This document shows, one piece after another, positions 4,205 to 33,709 of a DNA stretch of 40,332 nt. The notes under the pieces are model-generated. The model saw nothing but the letters and a program-made list of their open reading frames with translations, was not told the DNA's origin and did no database searches. Numbering within the stretch: position 1 is the stretch's first letter; the number at the start of each line of letters is the position of its first letter. Position numbers and translations under genes: made by a program. Source of the stretch: a virus. The DNA lies in the IMG/VR virus record IMGVR_UViG_3300047552_000775, positions 1 to 40,332 of that record; one strand, given 5' to 3'.

Positions 4205-5179
4205 CTACCTCCGCAACAGTTGGCACGTCACATAATCTAAAGCTATTTCAGAATCTAATAAACCGATTTTTATTCCTTTCTCGGCAGATCTAATTATCTT
4301 TATATTTTCAATTAATTCGAGAGTCGTATAGTGATTTTTTTGTTGACGTAAGTAATAAATCTGACCACTTGATAATCCCGTTAATTCAGGCGTAGCCTGT
4401 GCCGGGCACCCCTGCACAAGTAGCATGTTTTTAAAATTGGTATATAAAGCTGCCAACGCTTTTAAATTATTTTCATTATATTGTTGCAATTCGTCTAACA
4501 ATTTCAAAGAATTAACATAGTCATTGCTTAGAACAGCGTTTGCAAAATCAAAAAGTCTATCTTCAGGATTACTGTAAAATAGATTGCACTTAATCGCTCT
4601 TTGAAATATATCATTGTAATCTGCGGATCCTTTTTCGGCTACCTCTGCAAGATATAATTGTTTCAACTTATCAATTTCAAACAACAGACGTCCATAATCA
4701 AAATTAGAAAACTTTACAAGACTTTGAGAGTTGACGGCATTCAAGGAAATTTCTTTGAATACGTATTTAAGTAATTGGTCTTCTGATAACTTCTCAAAAG
4801 AAACTAAAGGCTGTTCCTCATCCAAAAAAGCTGTATTGGTGAAGTGCTTATAAAACTTTTCTCTTTTATCCAATTCAGGATAAATCGCTATTAGATAATT
4901 GTCGCCTATAAGCTTGTCCACGTTCTTCCAAACAGTTTCAGCCCTTCTAAAAAGCTTATCTTCGTATAAGACATAGAGTTTTTTCTCATTGGTTAGTGTT
5001 TTACTTTTACTATCGGCGAGAACGATTTTTATATCTTCCTTTCTACTAATAGTAAGCCCGAACACTCTGGCTATTCCATTAATGTATGTCTTAGCCACCG
5101 CCTGCTCTTCTCCAGTAAACACTAAAACTTTTGGACAGTTTTTTGCTTTTATTTTATTTACTAAAGTTATTAAATCCAT
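4205..5179 (-). CDS. Clamp-loader delta subunit (HolA-like)
   Basis: A 324-residue protein with the features of the delta subunit of a bacterial clamp loader, which opens the sliding clamp ring. It begins with PKVLVFTGEEQAVAKTYI, the degenerate P-loop region of HolA with no functional Walker A lysine. The middle LLFEIDKLKQLYL matches the conserved E-KL segment of HolA, and the C-terminus ends in a helical collar with YYLRQQKNHYTTLELIENI. Length is close to bacterial delta (about 340). Delta-prime and split DnaX lie just upstream, so a full gamma-delta-delta-prime set is encoded. The start ATG at 5179 follows GGGAG. Confidence 0.8.
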   Translation of the reverse strand: MDLITLVNKIKAKNCPKVLVFTGEEQAVAKTYINGIARVFGLTISRKEDIKIVLADSKSKTLTNEKKLYVLYEDKLFRRAETVWKNVDKLIGDNYLIAIYPELDKREKFYKHFTNTAFLDEEQPLVSFEKLSEDQLLKYVFKEISLNAVNSQSLVKFSNFDYGRLLFEIDKLKQLYLAEVAEKGSADYNDIFQRAIKCNLFYSNPEDRLFDFANAVLSNDYVNSLKLLDELQQYNENNLKALAALYTNFKNMLLVQGCPAQATPELTGLSSGQIYYLRQQKNHYTTLELIENIKIIRSAEKGIKIGLLDSEIALDYVTCQLLRR

Positions 5180-5180
5180 T

Positions 5181-5609
5181 TTAAACTCCCACTGCTATTA
5201 ATGTTTCAGCACCGTACTGGTCTACAAATGCCTTAACATATGACTTCATTACACATCTGCCTCTTAGACTGTCAAATGAATTATAGAAACAAGATTTGCA
5301 ATTACACCGTTGCTCAAAACAATCTCTTAACGTTTCAGAAAAGCCCGAAAATACAGGACTTTTTTCTGATTGCTTTTTATCCCACAACTGATTAAATGCC
5401 TCCACGAATCTATCAATATCAGCAATATGAGCGCAGGGTCTTTTTGCATGGTTACTAGATTTTAAAACAACCATAGCAGCTAAATCTTTATCTTCCCTAA
5501 TAAACGAATTAGTCACTGCCTGCAACGACATTAAAGACTGCACGTTGCACTTTAGTCTTAAATACTCTTTGTTTTCCCATAAATCACGCATTGTTACTTC
5601 TCTTTTCAT
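5181..5609 (-). CDS. Cysteine-rich hypothetical protein between clamp-loader genes
   Basis: A 142-residue protein starting MKREVTMRDLWENKEYL behind AAGGAG. Its C-terminal half contains a run of cysteines (C-x4-C-x-C-x2-C, then another Cys 14 residues later) that could hold zinc or an iron-sulfur cluster. No catalytic motif is recognised. It sits between the delta-prime and delta clamp-loader genes and ends one nt before the delta start, so it may work with the replisome, but that is only positional evidence. Confidence 0.6.
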   Translation of the reverse strand: MKREVTMRDLWENKEYLRLKCNVQSLMSLQAVTNSFIREDKDLAAMVVLKSSNHAKRPCAHIADIDRFVEAFNQLWDKKQSEKSPVFSGFSETLRDCFEQRCNCKSCFYNSFDSLRGRCVMKSYVKAFVDQYGAETLIAVGV

Positions 5610-22318: not shown

Positions 22319-22909
22319 CTATCCTTTTATTAACTGTAAAAATTCCTGTCTTAAATTATAGTTAGTTCTAAAAGATCCTAACATTGATGATGTAACCATT
22401 AGGCTTTCTCTTTTTCGTACTCCTCTAGCCTTCATACAAAAATGCTGAGCCTCTACTATGACAGCGACCCCTCTAGGTTTTAGTATTCTTTTAATGTCAT
22501 TAGCAATATCTGCGGTCATTTTTTCTTGTATCTGTAATCTATTAGCGTGCATATCCACCAATCTAGCTAATTTAGATATTCCAACTACCTTTCTCGAAGG
22601 CAGGTAGGCAATGCTAACTTTTCCAAAAAATGGGAGCATATGATGTTCACAAGTAGAGTAAAATTCACAATCTTTTAGAATGATTAACTCATCATAATTT
22701 CCGAATTCCTTAAAGCCCACTTTTAGAATATCCTCGGCTTTTTTAGTATAACCTCCGTAAATCTCCTTCCAAGAATTAACCACCCTTTTAGGAGTATCTT
22801 TTAAACCCTCTCTATCTGGATTTTCTCCGATATATTCTAAGATTTTTTTAATATGGATTTTAGAATTATAATCACCTAAATTAAAATCTTTAGTTCCGTC
22901 TGTTACCAT
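22319..22909 (-). CDS. folE: GTP cyclohydrolase I
   Basis: A 196-residue FolE that converts GTP to dihydroneopterin triphosphate, the first step toward 7-deazaguanine. The zinc site is visible: CEFYSTCEHHMLPFFG provides Cys and His ligands, and the later AQHFCMKARGV gives the second Cys. The string ISKLARLVDMHANRLQIQE is the family hallmark. The protein is intact. It lies downstream of QueD, QueE and DpdA in the same transcription direction, so it probably feeds them. Start ATG 22909 with GGAG ten nt upstream. Confidence 0.95.
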   Translation of the reverse strand: MVTDGTKDFNLGDYNSKIHIKKILEYIGENPDREGLKDTPKRVVNSWKEIYGGYTKKAEDILKVGFKEFGNYDELIILKDCEFYSTCEHHMLPFFGKVSIAYLPSRKVVGISKLARLVDMHANRLQIQEKMTADIANDIKRILKPRGVAVIVEAQHFCMKARGVRKRESLMVTSSMLGSFRTNYNLRQEFLQLIKG

Positions 22910-23415: not shown

Positions 23416-24387
23416 TTATACTAAAGAAATTATATTATCTACGTTACTTGAATATCTCATTGGATAAAATTTAATATCTTCTCCCATAGCTAATCTTATT
23501 AAATCTACAGCTTCTCCCAAAGTGTTGTATAGAGGATATTCTTTTAGGGTCTCTTTATACGCTAGTCTATTAGGAGCTATAGGATAACATTTTAAATTAA
23601 CTGCCTCTAACATAGCTATTCCGAACAATTCGTGAGTAGCGAAACTTATAACAGCTTTACTTTTTGCAAGTAGAGTATAATAGGCTCCCTTAGTCAAATT
23701 ATAATCCAAAGTTCTAATGAACTCAATATTTGAATATGGATATTTGTCTTTATACATTTCTTCAATGACTTTGAATAATTCCGGTTGTTTATCTTTTCCT
23801 AATCTATGAGGAAATATCACTATATTTTCTTTATTCTCGGTGTATGAGAGATACTCTGAGCATTCATAAACGGGATAATCTACTACAGTTATTTTACACA
23901 GTTCGCCACGTCTTTGAACTATTTCCTGTCTATGCAATTGAGATCCTACAAATACCTCATCGGCAATTTTGAGAATGGATTTTTCAAAGTCCTCTCCCCA
24001 TACTCCACATCCATTTTGCGTTATAAAGTCGTAGTCGTCGTATGTCCCAGCATGAAGCATTCCTTTAATTCTAAAATTCATACGAGCGTTATCTCTGATA
24101 TAGGCTAATGCCTCTACTCCTGGGAACCAGTAATCCATAAAGAATATACAATCAATATCATTATGAATCTTGAGCAATTCAATTATTTCTTGTAACTGTC
24201 CTAGTTTATAGCTATTAGTGTCATACACATCCAAAAACTGCCCGACTTTTATTTCTTTTAAATTAGTATCCCCGACAACTAAAACTTCTTTATCGAAACG
24301 CTTAAAGCTAGCCATAAACCAATCAAACCACTGATTGCTATACCGTCTATCTATTCTCTCTATTGGAACAAAAATAACTTTACCCAT
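23416..24387 (-). CDS. DUF3524/QTMAN-like glycosyltransferase
   Basis: A 323-residue GT-B glycosyltransferase. Two strings match the family of the tRNA-queuosine mannosyltransferase (DUF3524, also GTDC1): FPHRLGKDKQPE in place of the NHRWEHDKNPE motif, and ATHELFGIAMLEAVNLKCYP, very close to the family's HEFFGVAMLEAVYCGCYP, followed by PNRLAYKE. QTMAN adds mannose to the cyclopentenediol of queuosine in tRNA-Asp. Here the gene lies inside a 7-deazaguanine cluster and overlaps queE by 3 nt, so its acceptor may be a deazaguanine base in DNA or tRNA. The acceptor is not proven. Confidence 0.65.
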   Translation of the reverse strand: MGKVIFVPIERIDRRYSNQWFDWFMASFKRFDKEVLVVGDTNLKEIKVGQFLDVYDTNSYKLGQLQEIIELLKIHNDIDCIFFMDYWFPGVEALAYIRDNARMNFRIKGMLHAGTYDDYDFITQNGCGVWGEDFEKSILKIADEVFVGSQLHRQEIVQRRGELCKITVVDYPVYECSEYLSYTENKENIVIFPHRLGKDKQPELFKVIEEMYKDKYPYSNIEFIRTLDYNLTKGAYYTLLAKSKAVISFATHELFGIAMLEAVNLKCYPIAPNRLAYKETLKEYPLYNTLGEAVDLIRLAMGEDIKFYPMRYSSNVDNIISLV

Positions 24388-25037
24388 TATACGCCTCTCT
24401 TATTCGGATCCCAAATGTATTTGTGAAGTTGGAGCTGAAAAACAGCCTTTAAATCATTCTCTTTGATAAAATCAACTACTAACGGCGGGTAAAAACCAAA
24501 TACAGGACTGATATACGGAACAGCCTCTGTTTTAATACTTTCTATAATAGTTTTTGCGTAATATAAATCTTCTTCACTTCCTACTACAAATTTAATAACG
24601 TCTAAATTATTTAGCAGTTTTAAATTTTCAAAATTATTATTTTTGTGCATTCCGCTAGAGGGACATTTTATATCCATAGTAAAGAAAAATTTACTTCTCC
24701 TCAATTTATACCTTAATTCTATAAACTTAGCTAAAAATACACTTCCATTAGTTTCTATGTTGGTGAATTTATCAGCTATCATTAAATCAGATATTAATTT
24801 TTCCACTTCTTGGTGAATTAATGGCTCTCCGCCTGTCAAAGTAACGCAGTCTGTCTTTATCTTACTTACAATATCCTCACTAGACATTAGAGTATATTCC
24901 TCTTCTGTTTGAGCATATTTAGTATCACAATAACTACATCTAAGGTTACATCCCGCCAACCTGATAAAAGTAGTTAAATACCCCGTTCTTTTACCCTCAC
25001 CCTCTATGCTGGAAAATATTTCATTAACTTTTAGCAT
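24387..25037 (-). CDS. queE: 7-carboxy-7-deazaguanine synthase (radical SAM)
   Basis: A 216-residue QueE, the radical SAM enzyme that rearranges 6-carboxytetrahydropterin to 7-carboxy-7-deazaguanine. The Fe-S motif C-x3-C-x2-C is CNLRCSYC, preceded by EIFSSIEGEGKRTG and FIRLAG, the family's typical opening. TLTGGEPL is the SAM-binding glycine-rich motif. Length and order are normal. It overlaps QueD by 7 nt and the glycosyltransferase by 3 nt, so the three are translationally coupled. ATG start at 25037. Confidence 0.95.
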   Translation of the reverse strand: MLKVNEIFSSIEGEGKRTGYLTTFIRLAGCNLRCSYCDTKYAQTEEEYTLMSSEDIVSKIKTDCVTLTGGEPLIHQEVEKLISDLMIADKFTNIETNGSVFLAKFIELRYKLRRSKFFFTMDIKCPSSGMHKNNNFENLKLLNNLDVIKFVVGSEEDLYYAKTIIESIKTEAVPYISPVFGFYPPLVVDFIKENDLKAVFQLQLHKYIWDPNKRGV

Positions 25038-25414
25038 TCTGAATACTCCGCTTCGTTATTAACTGATTCTACGACTACAACCTTTGAGCATTTTATAAGG
25101 GGCTGCTCATTGTATTGTATAACCAACTCTCTATTGATAGATTCATAAACCCATTTAGCTATGTTCTCAGCAGTAGGGTTAAAATTTAACTCCTCGTTCA
25201 AATTTTTATGGTCTAATTTACTATGGATTCTAGCTTGGAATATATCTTTAAGTCTTCCAAAATCCATTATCATACTATTTCTGTCTAAACAAGGGGAAGA
25301 CAGTTCTACAATTATGGACCAATTATGCCCGTGACAATTTTTGCACTTGCTTTCGTAATCCAAATCTAATTTATGAGCCCCAGCTACTTCAAAGGTTCTT
25401 CTAATTTTAAACAT
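25031..25414 (-). CDS. queD: 6-carboxytetrahydropterin synthase
   Basis: A 127-residue QueD that converts dihydroneopterin triphosphate to 6-carboxytetrahydropterin. Zinc ligands are His14, His28 and His30 (CHGH), with Cys24 in the catalytic position (CxxxHGH). DFGRLKD, LDHKNLNE and TAENIAKWVYE match conserved parts in order. It overlaps the end of dpdA by 8 nt and the start of queE by 7 nt. ATG start at 25414, with GGAGAG upstream. Confidence 0.95.
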   Translation of the reverse strand: MFKIRRTFEVAGAHKLDLDYESKCKNCHGHNWSIIVELSSPCLDRNSMIMDFGRLKDIFQARIHSKLDHKNLNEELNFNPTAENIAKWVYESINRELVIQYNEQPLIKCSKVVVVESVNNEAEYSEC

Positions 25415-26342
25415 TTACACTCTCCATTATAAATCTTGCCTTGTTACCTAAATCTGAATTATATTTAAACTTTTTAGATCTGTTTATGTAATACTCAATA
25501 TCAAACTTTAATCTCTCTTTGTAATCTTTTCTTAATTTATCTAAATCAAATCCCAATGAATTTACATATTTTTCAAGCCCTTCGTATATCGCCTTAGGCA
25601 TGTTACACACGTGTGCAGGATCTTTTATCCTAGTATCACTCACCACGTAACCTCCCTTAGGAGTTATAATAGATCCCATTGTTGAATTTTGAATCCAAGT
25701 AGAAGAGTCACAGCTGTAAAAAGGGTATTTTTCCAGCAGCTTGAAGGTAGTTACCCCAAAGGCGTGAACCTTAACATTTGGATTTTTACTACTGTTCACA
25801 ACCCTTCTAGCCCTCTCTAAATGAACGTCTCTATCTCTATTTGACCTGATACTTAACCCCCCGAAACCGATATAATCTAAATACTTTCCGTTAAATTTAG
25901 TGTTAAGAATTCTGTCTAAATATTTTAAATCCTCACCTAAGTGAAATACAGGAAGTAATCTATCTGGGCAATTAACTTTATCAAGCATATAAACGAAGTT
26001 TTCCCAACTTTTTTCTGCGGATTCTGTAACGTGTTCTTTTGTTCTAGGCATTCCAAAAATTCCAGGAATGTGGTCTAATTGAACAAAGTAAACATCCGAT
26101 GATGTAAAAGAATTAATATAATCGATGTATTCGTCTACGTTAATCATTTTATGCTTAGTATGAGCTGTAAAAGCTCCACTATCAATCAAAAGTTTATTGT
26201 GCTTACTGAGGTATTTATTTTTCCAAGATTCAATGTCCTTTCTCTCAGTGTACTGACTATACAGCTTGTGCCCGCCTTTTTTGTAAATATGTTCAATGGC
26301 TTCTTCGCATTGTTTACCAGCAAAATATAAAACGATACTCAT
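25407..26342 (-). CDS. dpdA: DpdA-like DNA 7-deazaguanine transglycosylase
   Basis: A 311-residue protein of the TGT/DpdA superfamily, which exchanges guanine in DNA for a 7-deazaguanine base. The N-terminal strand LLIDSGAFTAHT contains the presumed catalytic Asp (about 54), and FVQLDHIPG and YIGFGGLSIRSN follow the TIM-barrel order. Near the C-terminus VHAFGVTTFKLLEKYPFYSCDSS is a hallmark of phage DpdA proteins. With FolE, QueD and QueE nearby it predicts modified DNA. QueC is not in this window and would be needed for preQ0. ATG at 26342 overlaps the GIY-YIG stop. Confidence 0.88.
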   Translation of the reverse strand: MSIVLYFAGKQCEEAIEHIYKKGGHKLYSQYTERKDIESWKNKYLSKHNKLLIDSGAFTAHTKHKMINVDEYIDYINSFTSSDVYFVQLDHIPGIFGMPRTKEHVTESAEKSWENFVYMLDKVNCPDRLLPVFHLGEDLKYLDRILNTKFNGKYLDYIGFGGLSIRSNRDRDVHLERARRVVNSSKNPNVKVHAFGVTTFKLLEKYPFYSCDSSTWIQNSTMGSIITPKGGYVVSDTRIKDPAHVCNMPKAIYEGLEKYVNSLGFDLDKLRKDYKERLKFDIEYYINRSKKFKYNSDLGNKARFIMESVNV

Positions 26343-26977
26343 AAAGACTCCTTTTTATCATACATTTTAGCTACTCTGGGGTCTTCTTTTGTTAAACCCT
26401 TATTCCAAGGAATTCTACCTTTATGAGAATCGCTCATTTTTTTTCTTGTTTCTTCGGAATGTTTTAATCCCAATGTTGGAGATTTTCTACCTTTTAAGGT
26501 ATTACTTATTTTTTGTCTAACCTCTTCTGGAATAATATTACCTAATAAGCTTATACTATTAGCTTGTCCTATTTTTAACTTAGTTTCCGCAGATAGCGGC
26601 TTTCCTAATCTTTTGTATTTATTAGCTCTGCCTATTTTTAACTTTACTTCTTCACTTATACTGCCTCCAGTAATACTTCCTTGATTATAAGTTTCTGAAT
26701 TATTATAGCCCCCAAAGTAATTCAACCATTCCAACTCTAAAGCATTTAATTCTTCGGGTTCGCATTCTTCCAAAACTTCAAATTTGAAGTTTTCGGAGCC
26801 ATACAAATTCCAAGCTGATTGTAGATGCGGATTAGAATGTTTATTGCAACTTAACATTATTTTATGGTCTTTAAATCTTTTATTACAATTTTTACTCTGC
26901 CCAATGTAGCATTTTCCATCGAACTTGTTAAAAATCCAATAAATTCCACATATTTTAGTTATATCTTCATGAAGCAT
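26339..26977 (-). CDS. GIY-YIG homing endonuclease (free-standing)
   Basis: A 212-residue homing endonuclease closely related to the one inside dnaX. The catalytic GIYWIFNK ... CYIGQ lies at residues 12-29 and the Glu-rich LEECEPEELNALELEWLNY after it. The rest has three NUMOD3-type repeats (KLKIGRANK, KLKIGQANS, KKMSDSHKG), DNA-binding units of homing enzymes. It overlaps the last 11 nt of the DNA polymerase gene but does not disrupt it, so it appears free-standing. Start ATG 26977. Confidence 0.9.
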   Translation of the reverse strand: MLHEDITKICGIYWIFNKFDGKCYIGQSKNCNKRFKDHKIMLSCNKHSNPHLQSAWNLYGSENFKFEVLEECEPEELNALELEWLNYFGGYNNSETYNQGSITGGSISEEVKLKIGRANKYKRLGKPLSAETKLKIGQANSISLLGNIIPEEVRQKISNTLKGRKSPTLGLKHSEETRKKMSDSHKGRIPWNKGLTKEDPRVAKMYDKKESL

Positions 26978-30110: not shown

Positions 30111-31520
30111 CTAAAAATTAATTATACTGTATCTTTCATCATTTAAAGTTTTAAGCATTGTCTGCTCAGGTGTTTCCAAACCTCCTAATACACATTTTAA
30201 AACATTAGGCGAGAACCCTGACACCAAAGCTGTTCCAGCTGTTCCAATCTGAACAGGATAATTGGATGTACTTCTGCTAGCCAGATTCCAAAATACAATT
30301 TGAGGTCTTTTATAGCCGGCGGAGGTAAACCTTCTATCTATATACTCGAAGTTAGTCGTAGAGTTATTATCACAGGCTCTGTCAAACTCCATATCCGATA
30401 ATATAAGGACTTTCGATGGTAAATCCTCTTGAGATAAATTATCTCTAACAGCCGTATCTAAAATAAGTTCAAATACTCTTTTCAAATCCGTATTAGCTAC
30501 CTCTCCGGTATTGACTTGTTCAATTCTATCACAAACATTTCCTTTTAAAGTTTGTAATTTCGGGTTACGGCTAAATGTTAAGAAGTTATCTTTAAATGCG
30601 CCGCCCATTCTCTCAGAAACATATATTCCCAGCGCTAAACAAACATCTATAGCTCTCACCTTTCCGGATACTTCTGTAGTCATGCTCGCCGATGTATCAC
30701 ATACCGGAAGTATATTTTCAATATTGCCTTTTAGCAAATCTGGAAGATTCTTCCACTGAGCATCGATAGCCTTTCTGTTTGAAGAATACTTATTGCGCAT
30801 AAATTCACACACTATATCGTGAGGAAATATAGATTTAGCATTTATCTTAACTTCGCCATTATTTGCTTTTTCTATAAATTTATTAAATCTGCTTTCGTCA
30901 TGCTTTTTAAAAGCGCCTCTATAGTTTTTAAAGGCGCAGCTAGGAACGTGGCTATAGTTTATGCCAGCCCATTCGTTATCGCACATTTTGTTTTCCACTA
31001 CTTCTGTAGCCTGTACAATAAGCTGTCTATAGTATTTCAAACTCATTTTAAAGTGACGTCTAAAGCCATCTCCAAAATTATCATATTGCTTTTTACGAGG
31101 CATCCACTTACCCACTAAACCATCTTTGGCTTTTAGTTTTGTATATAAATATTCGTACACTTTTGGATTTTTAATGCTGAACAAACTATCAACTCTACTG
31201 AAAAACGGAATATTTTCAATATTATTTAAAGCTATTTCAGGATGATTATTCCATAACCAACCCAAACCTACTCTAAAAAATCTTCTTTCTCCGGCTCCTT
31301 CTCGAACATCACCCGCCCAGAATAGCAATCTTAAAGTTAGTTCTTTGTTAGTATTATAAGCCAAACTAAACTTTGAAATAATTTGAGCTTCTGTAAGTTG
31401 TCTCGAAGCTCCTGCTAAACTAAATAAATCCAATACCGGATTCAAAGTAGTTGAGTTGGTTACGGCGCCATTTTCTGTACGGCTTTCTCTCCTAGTGATA
31501 CCTTTTAATAATTTGCTCAT
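30111..31520 (-). CDS. DUF2828 protein, Ro60-like helical repeats plus vWA domain
   Basis: A 469-residue protein with an N-terminal helical-repeat half (LTLRLLFWAGDVREGAGERRF) and a C-terminal von Willebrand A domain from about residue 270. The metal-dependent adhesion motif is DTSASM at 275-280, with TDL and LILSDMEFD completing it. The layout matches DUF2828 and is analogous to Ro60/Rsr proteins, ring-shaped RNA chaperones that bind misfolded RNAs and tRNA-like Y RNAs. It starts directly after the permuted tRNA region, with GAGG nine nt upstream, so both may be on one transcript and work together. The RNA partner is unproven. Confidence 0.75.
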   Translation of the reverse strand: MSKLLKGITRRESRTENGAVTNSTTLNPVLDLFSLAGASRQLTEAQIISKFSLAYNTNKELTLRLLFWAGDVREGAGERRFFRVGLGWLWNNHPEIALNNIENIPFFSRVDSLFSIKNPKVYEYLYTKLKAKDGLVGKWMPRKKQYDNFGDGFRRHFKMSLKYYRQLIVQATEVVENKMCDNEWAGINYSHVPSCAFKNYRGAFKKHDESRFNKFIEKANNGEVKINAKSIFPHDIVCEFMRNKYSSNRKAIDAQWKNLPDLLKGNIENILPVCDTSASMTTEVSGKVRAIDVCLALGIYVSERMGGAFKDNFLTFSRNPKLQTLKGNVCDRIEQVNTGEVANTDLKRVFELILDTAVRDNLSQEDLPSKVLILSDMEFDRACDNNSTTNFEYIDRRFTSAGYKRPQIVFWNLASRSTSNYPVQIGTAGTALVSGFSPNVLKCVLGGLETPEQTMLKTLNDERYSIINF

Positions 31521-31574
31521 TTGTATATCCTCTCTTAATATGCTCCAGACTACTGTTTATCGCTTCACCGATTT

Positions 31575-31596
31575 ATTACTTGCTGTAAGTAATCCT
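31575..31596 (-). repeat. Solo copy of the flanking element, hairpin form
   Basis: On the minus strand this copy reads AGGATTACTTACAGC, matching the consensus of the strand that opens each permuted-tRNA unit (RRRATnn then CAGC). Unlike the others it has no 7-nt partner downstream. Instead it forms its own 7-bp hairpin (31575-31581 with 31587-31593) with loop ACAGC on the minus strand. It lies about 55 nt upstream of the DUF2828 start. It may be a remnant of a fifth unit or a 3'-end signal of the array. Confidence 0.45.
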
Positions 31597-31606
31597 AAAA
31601 TTTAAC

Positions 31607-31718
31607 AGAATGGCATTTTTTATATTTGCTCTACCAATTGAGCTAGATTCACTGTGGCGTAAATCATAGGAATCGAACCTATTACATAATATTTTTTTAT
31701 GTTTGCTGTTACCATTCT
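31607..31718 (-). repeat. Flanked unit C of the permuted-tRNA array
   Basis: Read on the minus strand, the unit begins with AGAATGG (31712-31718) followed by TAACAGC and ends with CCATTCT (31607-31613). These form a perfect 7-bp helix around the permuted tRNA. The helix differs from those of units A and B at several positions, with compensating changes. The unit is 112 nt, exactly 12 nt shorter than A and B, which are each 124 nt. The shortage lies between the D-arm and T-arm. Confidence 0.7.
31622..31692 (-). tRNA. Permuted tRNA C, 3' half before 5' half, CCA encoded
   Basis: In transcript order come the T-arm (ATAGG-TTCGATT-CCTAT, 31682-31666), the 3' acceptor strand GATTTAC, discriminator G, an encoded CCA, two linker bases, and then the 5' acceptor strand GTGAATC, TA, and the D-arm GCTC-AATTGGTA-GAGC (31643-31628). 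The acceptor strands make seven pairs with one G-U. The strands AATAT (31626-31622) and ATATT (31692-31688) could form an anticodon stem, but the bases between and around them are nearly all A and no loop with U33 can be drawn. It may be a degenerate copy or need an unknown rearrangement. Confidence 0.6.
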
Positions 31719-31731
31719 TATAAGTTTTTAC

Positions 31732-31855
31732 GGAATAGAATTTGTTTGTATACGGTGCTTTAGACCTCTAAGCTAACCCCCGTTATTCGGGGGTGTAGGA
31801 TTCGAACCTACGATACCCGGCTCCTAATGCAACAATAAAATGCTGTTACTATTCC
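31732..31855 (-). repeat. Flanked unit B of the permuted-tRNA array
   Basis: On the minus strand this 124-nt unit opens with GGAATAG (31849-31855) and TAACAGC and closes with CTATTCC (31732-31738), a perfect 7-bp helix. Inside, TTGTT just before the tRNA 3' half can pair with AACAA just after the 5' half, giving a second short helix next to the presumed splice points. About 11-12 nt (upstream) and 14 nt (downstream) separate the 7-bp helix and CAGC from the tRNA sequence. These distances are the same in unit A. Confidence 0.75.
31753..31830 (-). tRNA. Permuted tRNA B, predicted anticodon UAG
   Basis: Transcript order is: GC, loop ATTAGGA, stem GCCGG, variable GTATC, T-arm GTAGG-TTCGAAT-CCTAC (31811-31795), 3' acceptor ACCCCCG, A73, linker ATAA, 5' acceptor CGGGGGT, TA, D-arm GCTT-AGAGGTCTA-AAGC, A26, CCG. 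The acceptor pairs perfectly over seven bases. Joining the final CCG (31755-31753) to the initial GC (31830-31829) restores a perfect anticodon stem CCGGC/GCCGG with loop ATTAGGA, anticodon UAG (codon CUA, Leu). The body has a short variable region and a C1-G72 pair, which are not typical of bacterial tRNA-Leu, so the amino acid is uncertain. CCA is not encoded. Confidence 0.8.
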
Positions 31856-31872
31856 TATAATATTGTAATTTC

Positions 31873-31942
31873 AGAATGCCTTTTTATTCGTATTCTTTTG
31901 CTTGAAAAAAGTTTTTGAATTTATTTTCGCTGCAAGCATTCT
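31873..31942 (-). repeat. Flanked unit D, remnant without a tRNA body
   Basis: This 70-nt unit lies between A and B. On the minus strand it opens with AGAATGC (31936-31942) and TTGCAGC and closes with GCATTCT (31873-31879), again a perfect 7-bp helix. The interior is A-rich and lacks acceptor and D-arm sequences. A hairpin CTTTT-TTCAAGC-AAAAG (31911-31895) has the shape and TTCAA loop of a decayed T-arm. It is best read as a degenerated fourth unit. Confidence 0.5.
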
Positions 31943-31962
31943 TATATTTTCTTAAAATAATC

Positions 31963-32086
31963 AGGATATCTTTTTTTGCTTATCTCTACCAATTGAGTTA
32001 CATACATCTTTCGACATACGGCTGGACTCGAACCAACATCTTTTAATTTTCAGTTAAAATGCAAATTTAGTTGCTGCAAATATCCT
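31963..32086 (-). repeat. Flanked unit A of the permuted-tRNA array
   Basis: On the minus strand this unit opens with AGGATAT (32080-32086), preceded by TATA and followed by TTGCAGC, and closes with ATATCCT (31963-31969), forming a perfect 7-bp helix. It is 124 nt, the same as unit B. TTTGC before the tRNA 3' half can pair with GCAAA after the 5' half, a second short helix in the same place as in unit B but with a different sequence. It starts three nt after the stop of the DUF932 gene region, so the array is probably co-transcribed. Confidence 0.75.
31982..32060 (-). tRNA. Permuted tRNA A, predicted tRNA-Phe (GAA)
   Basis: Transcript order is: anticodon arm TTTAA-CTGAAAA-TTAAA (32058-32042), anticodon GAA with U33 and A37 as in tRNA-Phe; variable AGAT; T-arm GTTGG-TTCGAGT-CCAGC (32037-32021); 3' acceptor CGTATGT; C73; linker GAAAG; 5' acceptor ATGTATG; TA; D-arm ACTC-AATTGGTA-GAGA (31998-31983). 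All seven acceptor pairs form, three of them G-U. In the D-stem, A10 faces A25. The whole anticodon arm is in the upstream piece, so the junction lies near position 24-26, not inside the anticodon loop. CCA is not encoded. Confidence 0.75.
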
Positions 32087-32094
32087 TATAGTTT

Positions 32095-33075
32095 TTAGTC
32101 TACTAAACTCAACGCTACCGATAAGGCTTTTCTATTAAGCCTATCTCCATCTCCAAACCATAGATTTTGATATCTCGAATCTTCGGAAGTTTTTTCAGTA
32201 CCCCTGACATGTTGGATATAACCTTGAGCCGCATTGTAAGCTCCCCAAAGTGTACCTCTTGCAGGATCTAATTCAAAAATTTCCTCGACACGATTTAACA
32301 ACCTTGTTCTGGCTTGTTCTATTTGTTCCTTCTCATCTTCCTCCGTACTTTCAAACATCTTATCCAACGATTTTGTGGAAAAAACTTGCTGAACATAATT
32401 TTCTAAATCAGCGCTATTAATATCTGTGTAGTACAAGCACTTATAATGCTCTACTGTGGTTTTAAAATTAATATTTACCAAATCCATTATATTTCTTAAT
32501 TCTTGAAGGTTATCTAATATTTTAGTTGTATGCCGTACTCTTATTAGCTGGCTCAACTCGTGTTCCTCAGCCATTTTAAGAGTATTGTTGCAAACCGCCC
32601 TAACAGGAGTAAATCCTACCCTTGCCGATGTTGTACCATCGTGAGAATTAGATAAAAGAATAAACCTTTCAACCTCATCCCCCTCACAAACTTGTAAGTT
32701 GGCATCTTTTATCTTAGCGAGTATGAATACCTTCTTACCGCTAAATAAACAACCGGCTGTTTCTAATGAAACTAATCCCGATTCTAAGTAAGGCTGAAAC
32801 CAATCAAAAGCTTCTACATTTTGAAGGGGTCTGTAATTACTTCCGACAACTCCTAAAATATGTTTTTTATCGTTCAACATTCTATAAGCGGCTTTACTAG
32901 GAACTTTAATATTGTCAGGTGTGTATAAATCATCCAATTCTACATTCCAATTTAAACCCGCTAGTTTTATGCCCTCTTCGATTGAAGGAGCCTCTTCAAC
33001 TACAGTTCCAAATTTATGCCAGGGACGTTTTTTAACACTAAAAAAGGAGTTATTATCCTCAAAACCGTGAGCCAT
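32095..33075 (-). CDS. DUF932 / TIGR03299-type phage protein
   Basis: A 326-residue protein that matches the DUF932 (phage/plasmid-like TIGR03299) family by its opening MAHGFEDNNSFFSVKKRPWH followed by KFGTVVEE, and by a later NSHDGTTSARVGFTPVRAVC with NTLKMA. This family is widespread in phages and plasmids, often near replication genes, and its function is not established. The protein is of normal length and intact. It precedes the permuted-tRNA region in the same direction, with only a few nt between its stop and unit A. ATG start 33075 with GGAGG upstream. Confidence 0.88.
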   Translation of the reverse strand: MAHGFEDNNSFFSVKKRPWHKFGTVVEEAPSIEEGIKLAGLNWNVELDDLYTPDNIKVPSKAAYRMLNDKKHILGVVGSNYRPLQNVEAFDWFQPYLESGLVSLETAGCLFSGKKVFILAKIKDANLQVCEGDEVERFILLSNSHDGTTSARVGFTPVRAVCNNTLKMAEEHELSQLIRVRHTTKILDNLQELRNIMDLVNINFKTTVEHYKCLYYTDINSADLENYVQQVFSTKSLDKMFESTEEDEKEQIEQARTRLLNRVEEIFELDPARGTLWGAYNAAQGYIQHVRGTEKTSEDSRYQNLWFGDGDRLNRKALSVALSLVD

Positions 33076-33076
33076 A

Positions 33077-33709
33077 TTATGCCGCCTCCAAATAATTAAA
33101 TTTCCAACCTTTGTGCTGTTTGTTAATTCCTTTTAAACATAAATGTATATTTTGTTGCTGAAGATTGTGTTCAATAGAAAAATGTTTCTGATTATTGCTT
33201 ACAAACTCCTCTCCAGTAGGAGAAATTGCTTTAAATTTTTTATTTGTTGTTTTATTGCTATTTTGAACTTTCGTAGTAACCCATCTAATATTTTCTTTTT
33301 CGTAGTTTCCATCGACATTTATTCTATCTATGGTTACGTTCTTTTCTCCTAATTCTTCACAAGCTTTTAAATAAGACTCATAGTGGTCTTGCATAAAAGG
33401 AATAAACTCTAAATACTCTGTGCAAGTTATTCCACGACCCCCATAGTATGGGTAGTGTAAATTCGCTATATTCAGGCATCTATTCTTCATACTAGCCCAT
33501 ATTGAATGAAATCTAGTACCCGACATATTATGATTACAACCACAAGATTTTACTTTTCCGGCAGTTAAGTCATTTATAGGAACTTCATGAGTATTTCCGC
33601 AATCGCACTTACATAACCATATTGTGCTTCTATGTCTAAATTTGTCGGTAGGCTCTAAAGCTACCAGTTTTCCAAATTTAAAACCAGTTATGTTTTTTGA
33701 CAGACCCAT
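33077..33709 (-). CDS. HNH-type homing endonuclease with zinc-binding N-terminus
   Basis: A 210-residue homing endonuclease closely related to that at 19777-20307. Shared features are the N-terminal FKFGKLVALEPT and CKCDCGNTHEV ... SCGC zinc ligands, the FHSIWASMKNRC string, YPYYGGRGITC, and NVTIDRINVDGNY followed by NIRWVTTK. The C-terminus is longer and carries extra basic residues. It stands first after the 33.77-kb promoter and just before the DUF932 gene. Free-standing; start ATG 33709 near GAGGAG. Confidence 0.82.
   Translation of the reverse strand: MGLSKNITGFKFGKLVALEPTDKFRHRSTIWLCKCDCGNTHEVPINDLTAGKVKSCGCNHNMSGTRFHSIWASMKNRCLNIANLHYPYYGGRGITCTEYLEFIPFMQDHYESYLKACEELGEKNVTIDRINVDGNYEKENIRWVTTKVQNSNKTTNKKFKAISPTGEEFVSNNQKHFSIEHNLQQQNIHLCLKGINKQHKGWKFNYLEAA

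Follow-up and report, generated by a model that had tools for sequence, protein, structure and literature searches.

We analysed a 40,332-nt stretch of viral DNA (IMG/VR record IMGVR_UViG_3300047552_000775, positions 1 to 40,332; hereafter the window), and in it a gene of the DUF2828-DUF7788 family together with the 574-nt gap upstream of that gene (31521-32094, minus strand). The locus is probably a second Ro/Y-RNA-like ribonucleoprotein system, parallel to Ro60/Rsr with its Y RNAs: a predicted Ro60-like protein is encoded next to an array of five putative small non-coding RNA units on the same strand. Because this pairing of RNA and protein recurs in many phages and bacterial genomes, often beside an RNA-repair ligase, it looks like a widespread and previously undescribed cousin of the Ro60/Y-RNA particle. 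We found no published description of the RNA motif or of DUF2828-linked RNAs in the searchable literature, outside which most subscription papers lie.

A predicted Ro60-like protein outside Pfam TROVE

The 469-amino-acid window protein matches the Pfam profiles DUF7788 (162.7 bits, cut-off 27.1, E 1e-47) and DUF2828 (135.1 bits, cut-off 29, E 4e-39), as well as the PHROGs family phrog_850, 'RNA-binding protein' (E 1e-127). It is laid out as a helical N-terminal part and a vWA domain with D275-x-S277-x-S279, and the metal ion-dependent adhesion site (MIDAS) motif DxSxS..T..D (D275, S277, S279, T344 and D376) is invariant in 35 relatives. A fold search with the AlphaFold2 model (predicted local distance difference test 88, predicted template modelling score 0.88) matched Xenopus Ro60 (2i91) along the whole chain, with Z 24.0 across 408 residues. 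Thermus phage phiLo Ro60 (PDB 9l5y) followed at Z 15.6 and D. radiodurans Rsr at Z 13.0, and unrelated isolated vWA domains scored Z 11.1 or less. An earlier, sequence-only reading of the window had assigned this gene product helical repeats, a vWA domain with DxSxS and hence a Ro60-like architecture; the first two are seen in the protein, and the model bears out the third.

Similarity at the sequence level is remote. The best matches in a sequence search of the PDB were Ro60/TROVE proteins at a non-significant E value (0.13), a profile comparison (hhalign) with four TROVE proteins gave E 4e-5 and probability 70, Pfam TROVE (PF05731) returned no row up to E 10 for the window protein, and a search of NCBIfam found nothing. 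Based on the structural model, we conclude that the window protein is a Ro60-like helical-repeat ring closed by a vWA domain, though outside Pfam TROVE. DUF2828/DUF7788, both domains of unknown function, have matches in 682 of the 50,697 phage records and are also present in many Clostridia and other bacteria.

Five predicted small RNA units upstream of the gene

The five units (U1 to U5, Table 1) share one plan: a stem strand, 2-3 nt, CAGC(A/G), a body, the stem complement, and then G. In the bodies of U1, U3 and U4, a T arm is followed by the acceptor 3' strand, a short loop, the acceptor 5' strand and the D arm. The sequence-only reading had described permuted tRNA units here, the last about 90 nt before the gene. 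Three such tRNA-like units are indeed present, and 87 nt separate the nearest from the start codon; the array, however, holds five units, two of them without a tRNA-like body, and one of these two, U5, occupies the supposed spacer. Dinucleotide shuffles of the gap (n=1000) contained no unit in 943 cases, one in 52 and two in 5, against the five observed. A chance origin of the array was rejected, as none of the 1000 shuffles reached even three units.

Table 1. The DUF2828-DUF7788 gene and the RNA units of the window. R1, a covariance model, was trained on 64 short units taken from other genomes, none of them in the window.
Feature	Position	Strand	Evidence
Coding sequence, 469 amino acids, Ro60-like: DUF2828 helical repeats + DUF7788 vWA domain (phrog_850)	30111..31520	(-)	Pfam/PHROGs, AlphaFold2 model, fold search
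U1: terminal stem + GCAGCAA, permuted tRNA-like body	31963..32086	(-)	descriptor; Rfam YrlA 19.9 bits and tRNA 27.1 bits, both below cut-off
U1 anticodon-type arm, loop CUGAAAA (Phe GAA)	32058-32042
U1 T arm	32037-32021
U1 acceptor helix, closed by C-GAAA-G	32020-32014/32007-32001
U1 D arm	from about 32000
U2: terminal stem + GCAGCGA, no tRNA-like body	31873..31942	(-)	descriptor; R1 E 1.6e-4
U3: terminal stem + ACAGCA, permuted tRNA-like body, C/G-rich acceptor helix	31732..31855	(-)	descriptor; Rfam YrlA 30.8 bits
U4: terminal stem + ACAGCAA, permuted tRNA-like body	31607..31718	(-)	R1 E 3e-5; Rfam YrlA 32.0 bits; fold
U4 T arm	31682-31666
U4 acceptor helix	31665-31659/31652-31646
U4 D arm	from 31645
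U5: short hairpin unit with ACAGCAA, no tRNA-like body, between U4 and gene	31547..31595	(-)	descriptor; R1 E 0.04

ARAGORN called no tRNA in the window, and Rfam at its gathering cut-off likewise passed over the units. The parts of a functional tRNA are incomplete: an anticodon-type arm is present in U1 alone, where a GAAA cap closes the acceptor. The defining features of YrlA RNAs, namely an end-to-end stem, a permuted tRNA-like body and an adjoining Ro-type gene, are found together for U1, U3 and U4 and not for U2 or U5. Rfam YrlA (RF02553) aligns with U4 end to end (31604-31718, E 6e-5) and with U3 at 31750-31819. No window unit reaches the YrlA gathering cut-off of 69 bits (32.0, 30.8 and 19.9 bits); for scale, the RNA that immediately precedes the TROVE gene at locus L212 scores only 39.9 bits as YrlA. 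For the window's permuted units, Y-RNA-type RNAs are a better reading than tRNA precursors.

A stem motif tied to the gene family

We counted ACAGCAA-stem units around relatives of the gene. Near 72 viral relatives there were 58 units in sense and 3 in antisense orientation; near 68 cellular relatives, mainly from Clostridia, there were 173 and 7. Most of the cellular sense units (146 of 173) are located no more than 1.2 kb upstream of the gene, and none lies inside it. Control pentamers, CTGCA, CATCA and CACCA among them, showed no comparable sense excess at those loci. Units are also present in cultured phages, including Listeria LP-048, Felix O1-type Alf5, Campylobacter Los1 and mycobacteriophage Snenia. 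The linkage with tRNA-like RNAs in other phages, which the sequence-only reading had named as a check, was thus found, in bacteria as well as phages. By these counts, the stem-CAGCAA motif is tied to the DUF2828-DUF7788 gene family.

R1, trained without window units, gives its first three ranks in the window to U4, U2 and U5, in that order, with U1 weak (E 2.1). It also finds RNAs in KVP40, S13 and DLP_6, all outside its training, at 7-10 kb from the gene; our first descriptor had missed the RNAs near the KVP40 gene, and R1 located one about 7 kb away. In genome G037, an R1 cluster lies just upstream of a second DUF7788 gene. A further R1 cluster in the same genome (G037:C1:1056323-1058991, plus strand), without a DUF7788 gene of its own, is about 40 kb from the nearest one.

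These positions bear on whether the RNAs are instead cis-acting leader elements of the DUF2828 mRNA, serving autoregulation rather than acting as free RNAs. Such leaders would explain the upstream, same-strand clustering of the bacterial units, and the window region shows no conspicuous promoter-like or terminator-like site. Units downstream of the gene in Alf5 and Snenia and the distant RNAs of KVP40, S13 and DLP_6 do not suit a leader, however, and the many diverse units per locus, with their tRNA-like bodies, are unlike leaders. We consider this explanation quite improbable.

Searches that started from the motif led back to the gene. An exact pattern matched 34 contigs in IMG/VR, 19 of which carry phrog_850. 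A blind pattern search in 116 bacterial genomes of one order returned 2 matches, both about 1 kb upstream of DUF7788 on the same strand, at a low sensitivity (2 of the 8 DUF7788-bearing genomes among the 116). An exact pattern was chosen for this blind test because R1 is weak on whole chromosomes (no match in G035). All five window units combine, near a DUF2828 gene, the terminal stem, CAGC(A/G) and a G after the stem, the last of which was not a selection criterion for units.

Several points weigh against a second Ro/Y-RNA-like system: (i) the other 15 of the 34 motif-bearing viral contigs show no DUF2828, and TROVE is absent from them too, though all may be fragments; (ii) many loci are related, so the locus counts are not independent; (iii) the terminal stem covaries at 7 of 7 pairs (score 0.785, versus 0.251 shuffled), and this covariation is partly circular because units were selected by stem pairing; (iv) the minimum-energy fold of U5 lacks the terminal stem, which makes it the weakest of the five units; and (v) neither RtcB nor a WYL gene lies near the window's gene.

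Range of RNA forms

Outside the window, 266 of 299 scored units have no T arm, and most are hairpins. Some are permuted tRNA-like RNAs, and at two loci (L099 and L101) cloverleaves are nested within the stem. In a further, unpermuted form, a tRNA body of about 93-126 nt carries the motif hairpin at its anticodon region. There are 12 such units in sense and 0 in antisense orientation; as tRNA, with an insertion of about 40-50 nt, they reach 46-52 bits. Anticodon-type loops across units include those for Phe, Tyr, Met, Arg, Lys, Asn and Leu. The loops that close the acceptor helices usually measure 3-13 nt (U1 has GAAA), and there is no consistent CCA end.

We note some individual cases. Six loci (L119, L110, L160, L165, L045 and L010) carry tRNA-scoring genes of 113-123 nt with a motif hairpin inserted in the anticodon region, and in Cronobacter phage S13 (L010) such hairpin-bearing elements are annotated tRNA-Ser and tRNA-OTHER. 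At L112, from -671 to +1961 of a cellular DUF2828 gene, there are repeated TTGAAACAGCA hairpin-form elements unlike the arrays at other loci. The viral contig L020 holds, along with a DUF2828 gene, a permuted transfer-messenger RNA (263-586; Rfam 71.7 bits, above cut-off).

Could the units be true permuted, intron-bearing tRNA genes, from which the motif-stem segment between the D and anticodon arms is removed, an RNA ligase (RtcB, for example) joining the ends into a working tRNA, with the Ro-like protein as chaperone? Complete anticodon-type arms occur in U1, L030 (Phe), L020 (Tyr) and L003 (Arg), the unpermuted relatives score as tRNA around their insertions, and RtcB is a frequent neighbour. 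We nevertheless think this unlikely: most units share the motif without a tRNA-like body, anticodon stems are in many cases interrupted, 3 bp long or missing, the acceptor helix of U1 contains three G-U pairs in addition to its GAAA cap, CCA and processing signals are absent, and the window has no RtcB. The related suggestion of the sequence-only reading, that the protein holds or folds permuted tRNA precursors, is unsupported, because two of the five window units and most units elsewhere have no tRNA-like body, because acceptor loops are short and end in no consistent CCA, and because the arrangement matches that of the YrlA-type RNA that precedes TROVE-type Ro genes. What the units have in common is a family-specific stem motif, not a tRNA; the tRNA-like Y RNAs that the same reading mentioned pointed the right way.

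We also weighed decay, in which tandem phage tRNA genes would have degenerated and would stand by chance beside an unrelated gene. Phages with a DUF2828 gene often carry tRNA clusters, and ARAGORN finds no intact tRNA in the window; the bodies, on the other hand, are well paired. We rejected this highly improbable origin because a common terminal stem and motif recur across unrelated phages and bacteria, linked to the gene on one strand only.

Neighbouring genes and a proposed mechanism

At the 68 cellular loci, RtcB (PF01139) is found nearby in 29 cases and a WYL/WCX protein pair in 42. In Listeria phage LP-048, RtcB and an annotated RNA ligase lie downstream. The Salmonella rsr-yrlBA-rtcBA operon responds to cleaved tRNAs, and its authors suggested that the tRNA-like domain of YrlA might inhibit an anticodon nuclease (PMC7790460).

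We propose that the DUF2828-DUF7788 protein would form a Ro60-like ring, its helical repeats closed by the vWA domain, and that the upstream array would yield five small RNAs. The terminal stem, the adjacent CAGC(A/G)A and the G after the 3' strand would serve as the handle bound by the protein, as their linkage to the gene suggests. The distal part would vary, being a tRNA mimic near the hinge of the D and anticodon arms in three units, as in YrlA, and a plain hairpin in the others. By analogy with Y RNAs, the RNAs may fill or gate the ring and connect it with factors able to recognise the shape of a tRNA. Because RtcB and WYL/WCX proteins accompany the bacterial versions, we infer a role in RNA repair, most likely of cleaved tRNAs; in a phage, such repair would protect translation during infection.

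A possible but doubtful extension would make the RNAs dedicated tRNA decoys that, held by the Ro-like ring, trap or sense anticodon nucleases and aid RtcB-type repair. Permuted and unpermuted forms and several anticodon loops would belong to this scheme, as a tRNA-protection system common to phages and bacteria.

A second Ro/Y-RNA-like system would tie DUF2828/DUF7788 to a small-RNA family covered by no Rfam model. Such a Ro-type particle would use another RNA handle, mimic tRNA in two circular arrangements and be connected to RNA repair, and simple phage systems could then serve to test what Ro/Y-RNA particles do, a long-open question.

Some other window genes on the same strand are of note. 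A DUF932 protein and an HNH endonuclease (32095-33709; Pfam, PHROGs) lie directly upstream of the RNA array. Farther away, PHROGs identifies a GTP cyclohydrolase (22319-22909), a QueE-like radical SAM protein (24387-25037) and a queuine tRNA-ribosyltransferase-like protein (25407-26342), together a typical gene set for modifying phage DNA with 7-deazaguanine.

Comparison with known systems

In the permuted tRNA genes of red algae and archaea, the 3' half precedes the 5' half. The tRNA-like units here have the same order, but the break falls at the D/anticodon hinge, inside the terminal stem, there is no sign of processing to tRNA, and most sibling RNAs are not tRNA-like.

Like phiLo Ro60, the window protein is a phage-encoded Ro60-like protein; phiLo Ro60 differs in being of TROVE type by its PDB name. 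Closer by family is CKA15_055 of a Listeria phage, a DUF2828 family member that is made during infection and found in virions (PMC12282133). Its authors proposed Y RNAs upstream of CKA15_055 from transcript abundance, and the suspected Y RNAs are given without motif, structure or conservation (PMC12282133). In LP-048 (L014), a ROOL RNA match (4927-5478, 90 bits, cut-off 99.1) lies about 1 kb upstream of the DUF2828 gene. Because this Rfam match is at a similar place, the most transcribed unannotated region of CKA15 (26,236-26,727, 492 nt) may by analogy be a ROOL RNA, which makes the transcript evidence ambiguous.

Six TROVE loci from the same phylum, a small sample, showed no convincing motif: the few descriptor matches fell within or downstream of genes, and R1 found nothing below E 0.09. 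At least at L211 and L212, a YrlA-like RNA can be read from the sequence that immediately precedes the TROVE gene; it is permuted in the same way and has another handle, GAGGCGC...GGGTTACTTCG.

The closest parallel is Rsr (TROVE) with YrlA and YrlB. Both systems have a Ro60-like ring protein (here as modelled), RNA ends that pair as a stem, a tRNA-like body in the same permuted order and, in the bacterial versions, an RtcB neighbour. They differ in that the protein here is DUF2828-DUF7788 and unmatched by Pfam TROVE, and in that the handle here is CAGCAA beside the stem, whereas TROVE loci show GAGGCGC...GGGUUACUUCG. Unlike in Rsr/YrlA, arrays here reach seven or eight RNAs, most without a tRNA-like body, unpermuted tRNA versions exist, and WYL/WCX proteins are neighbours.
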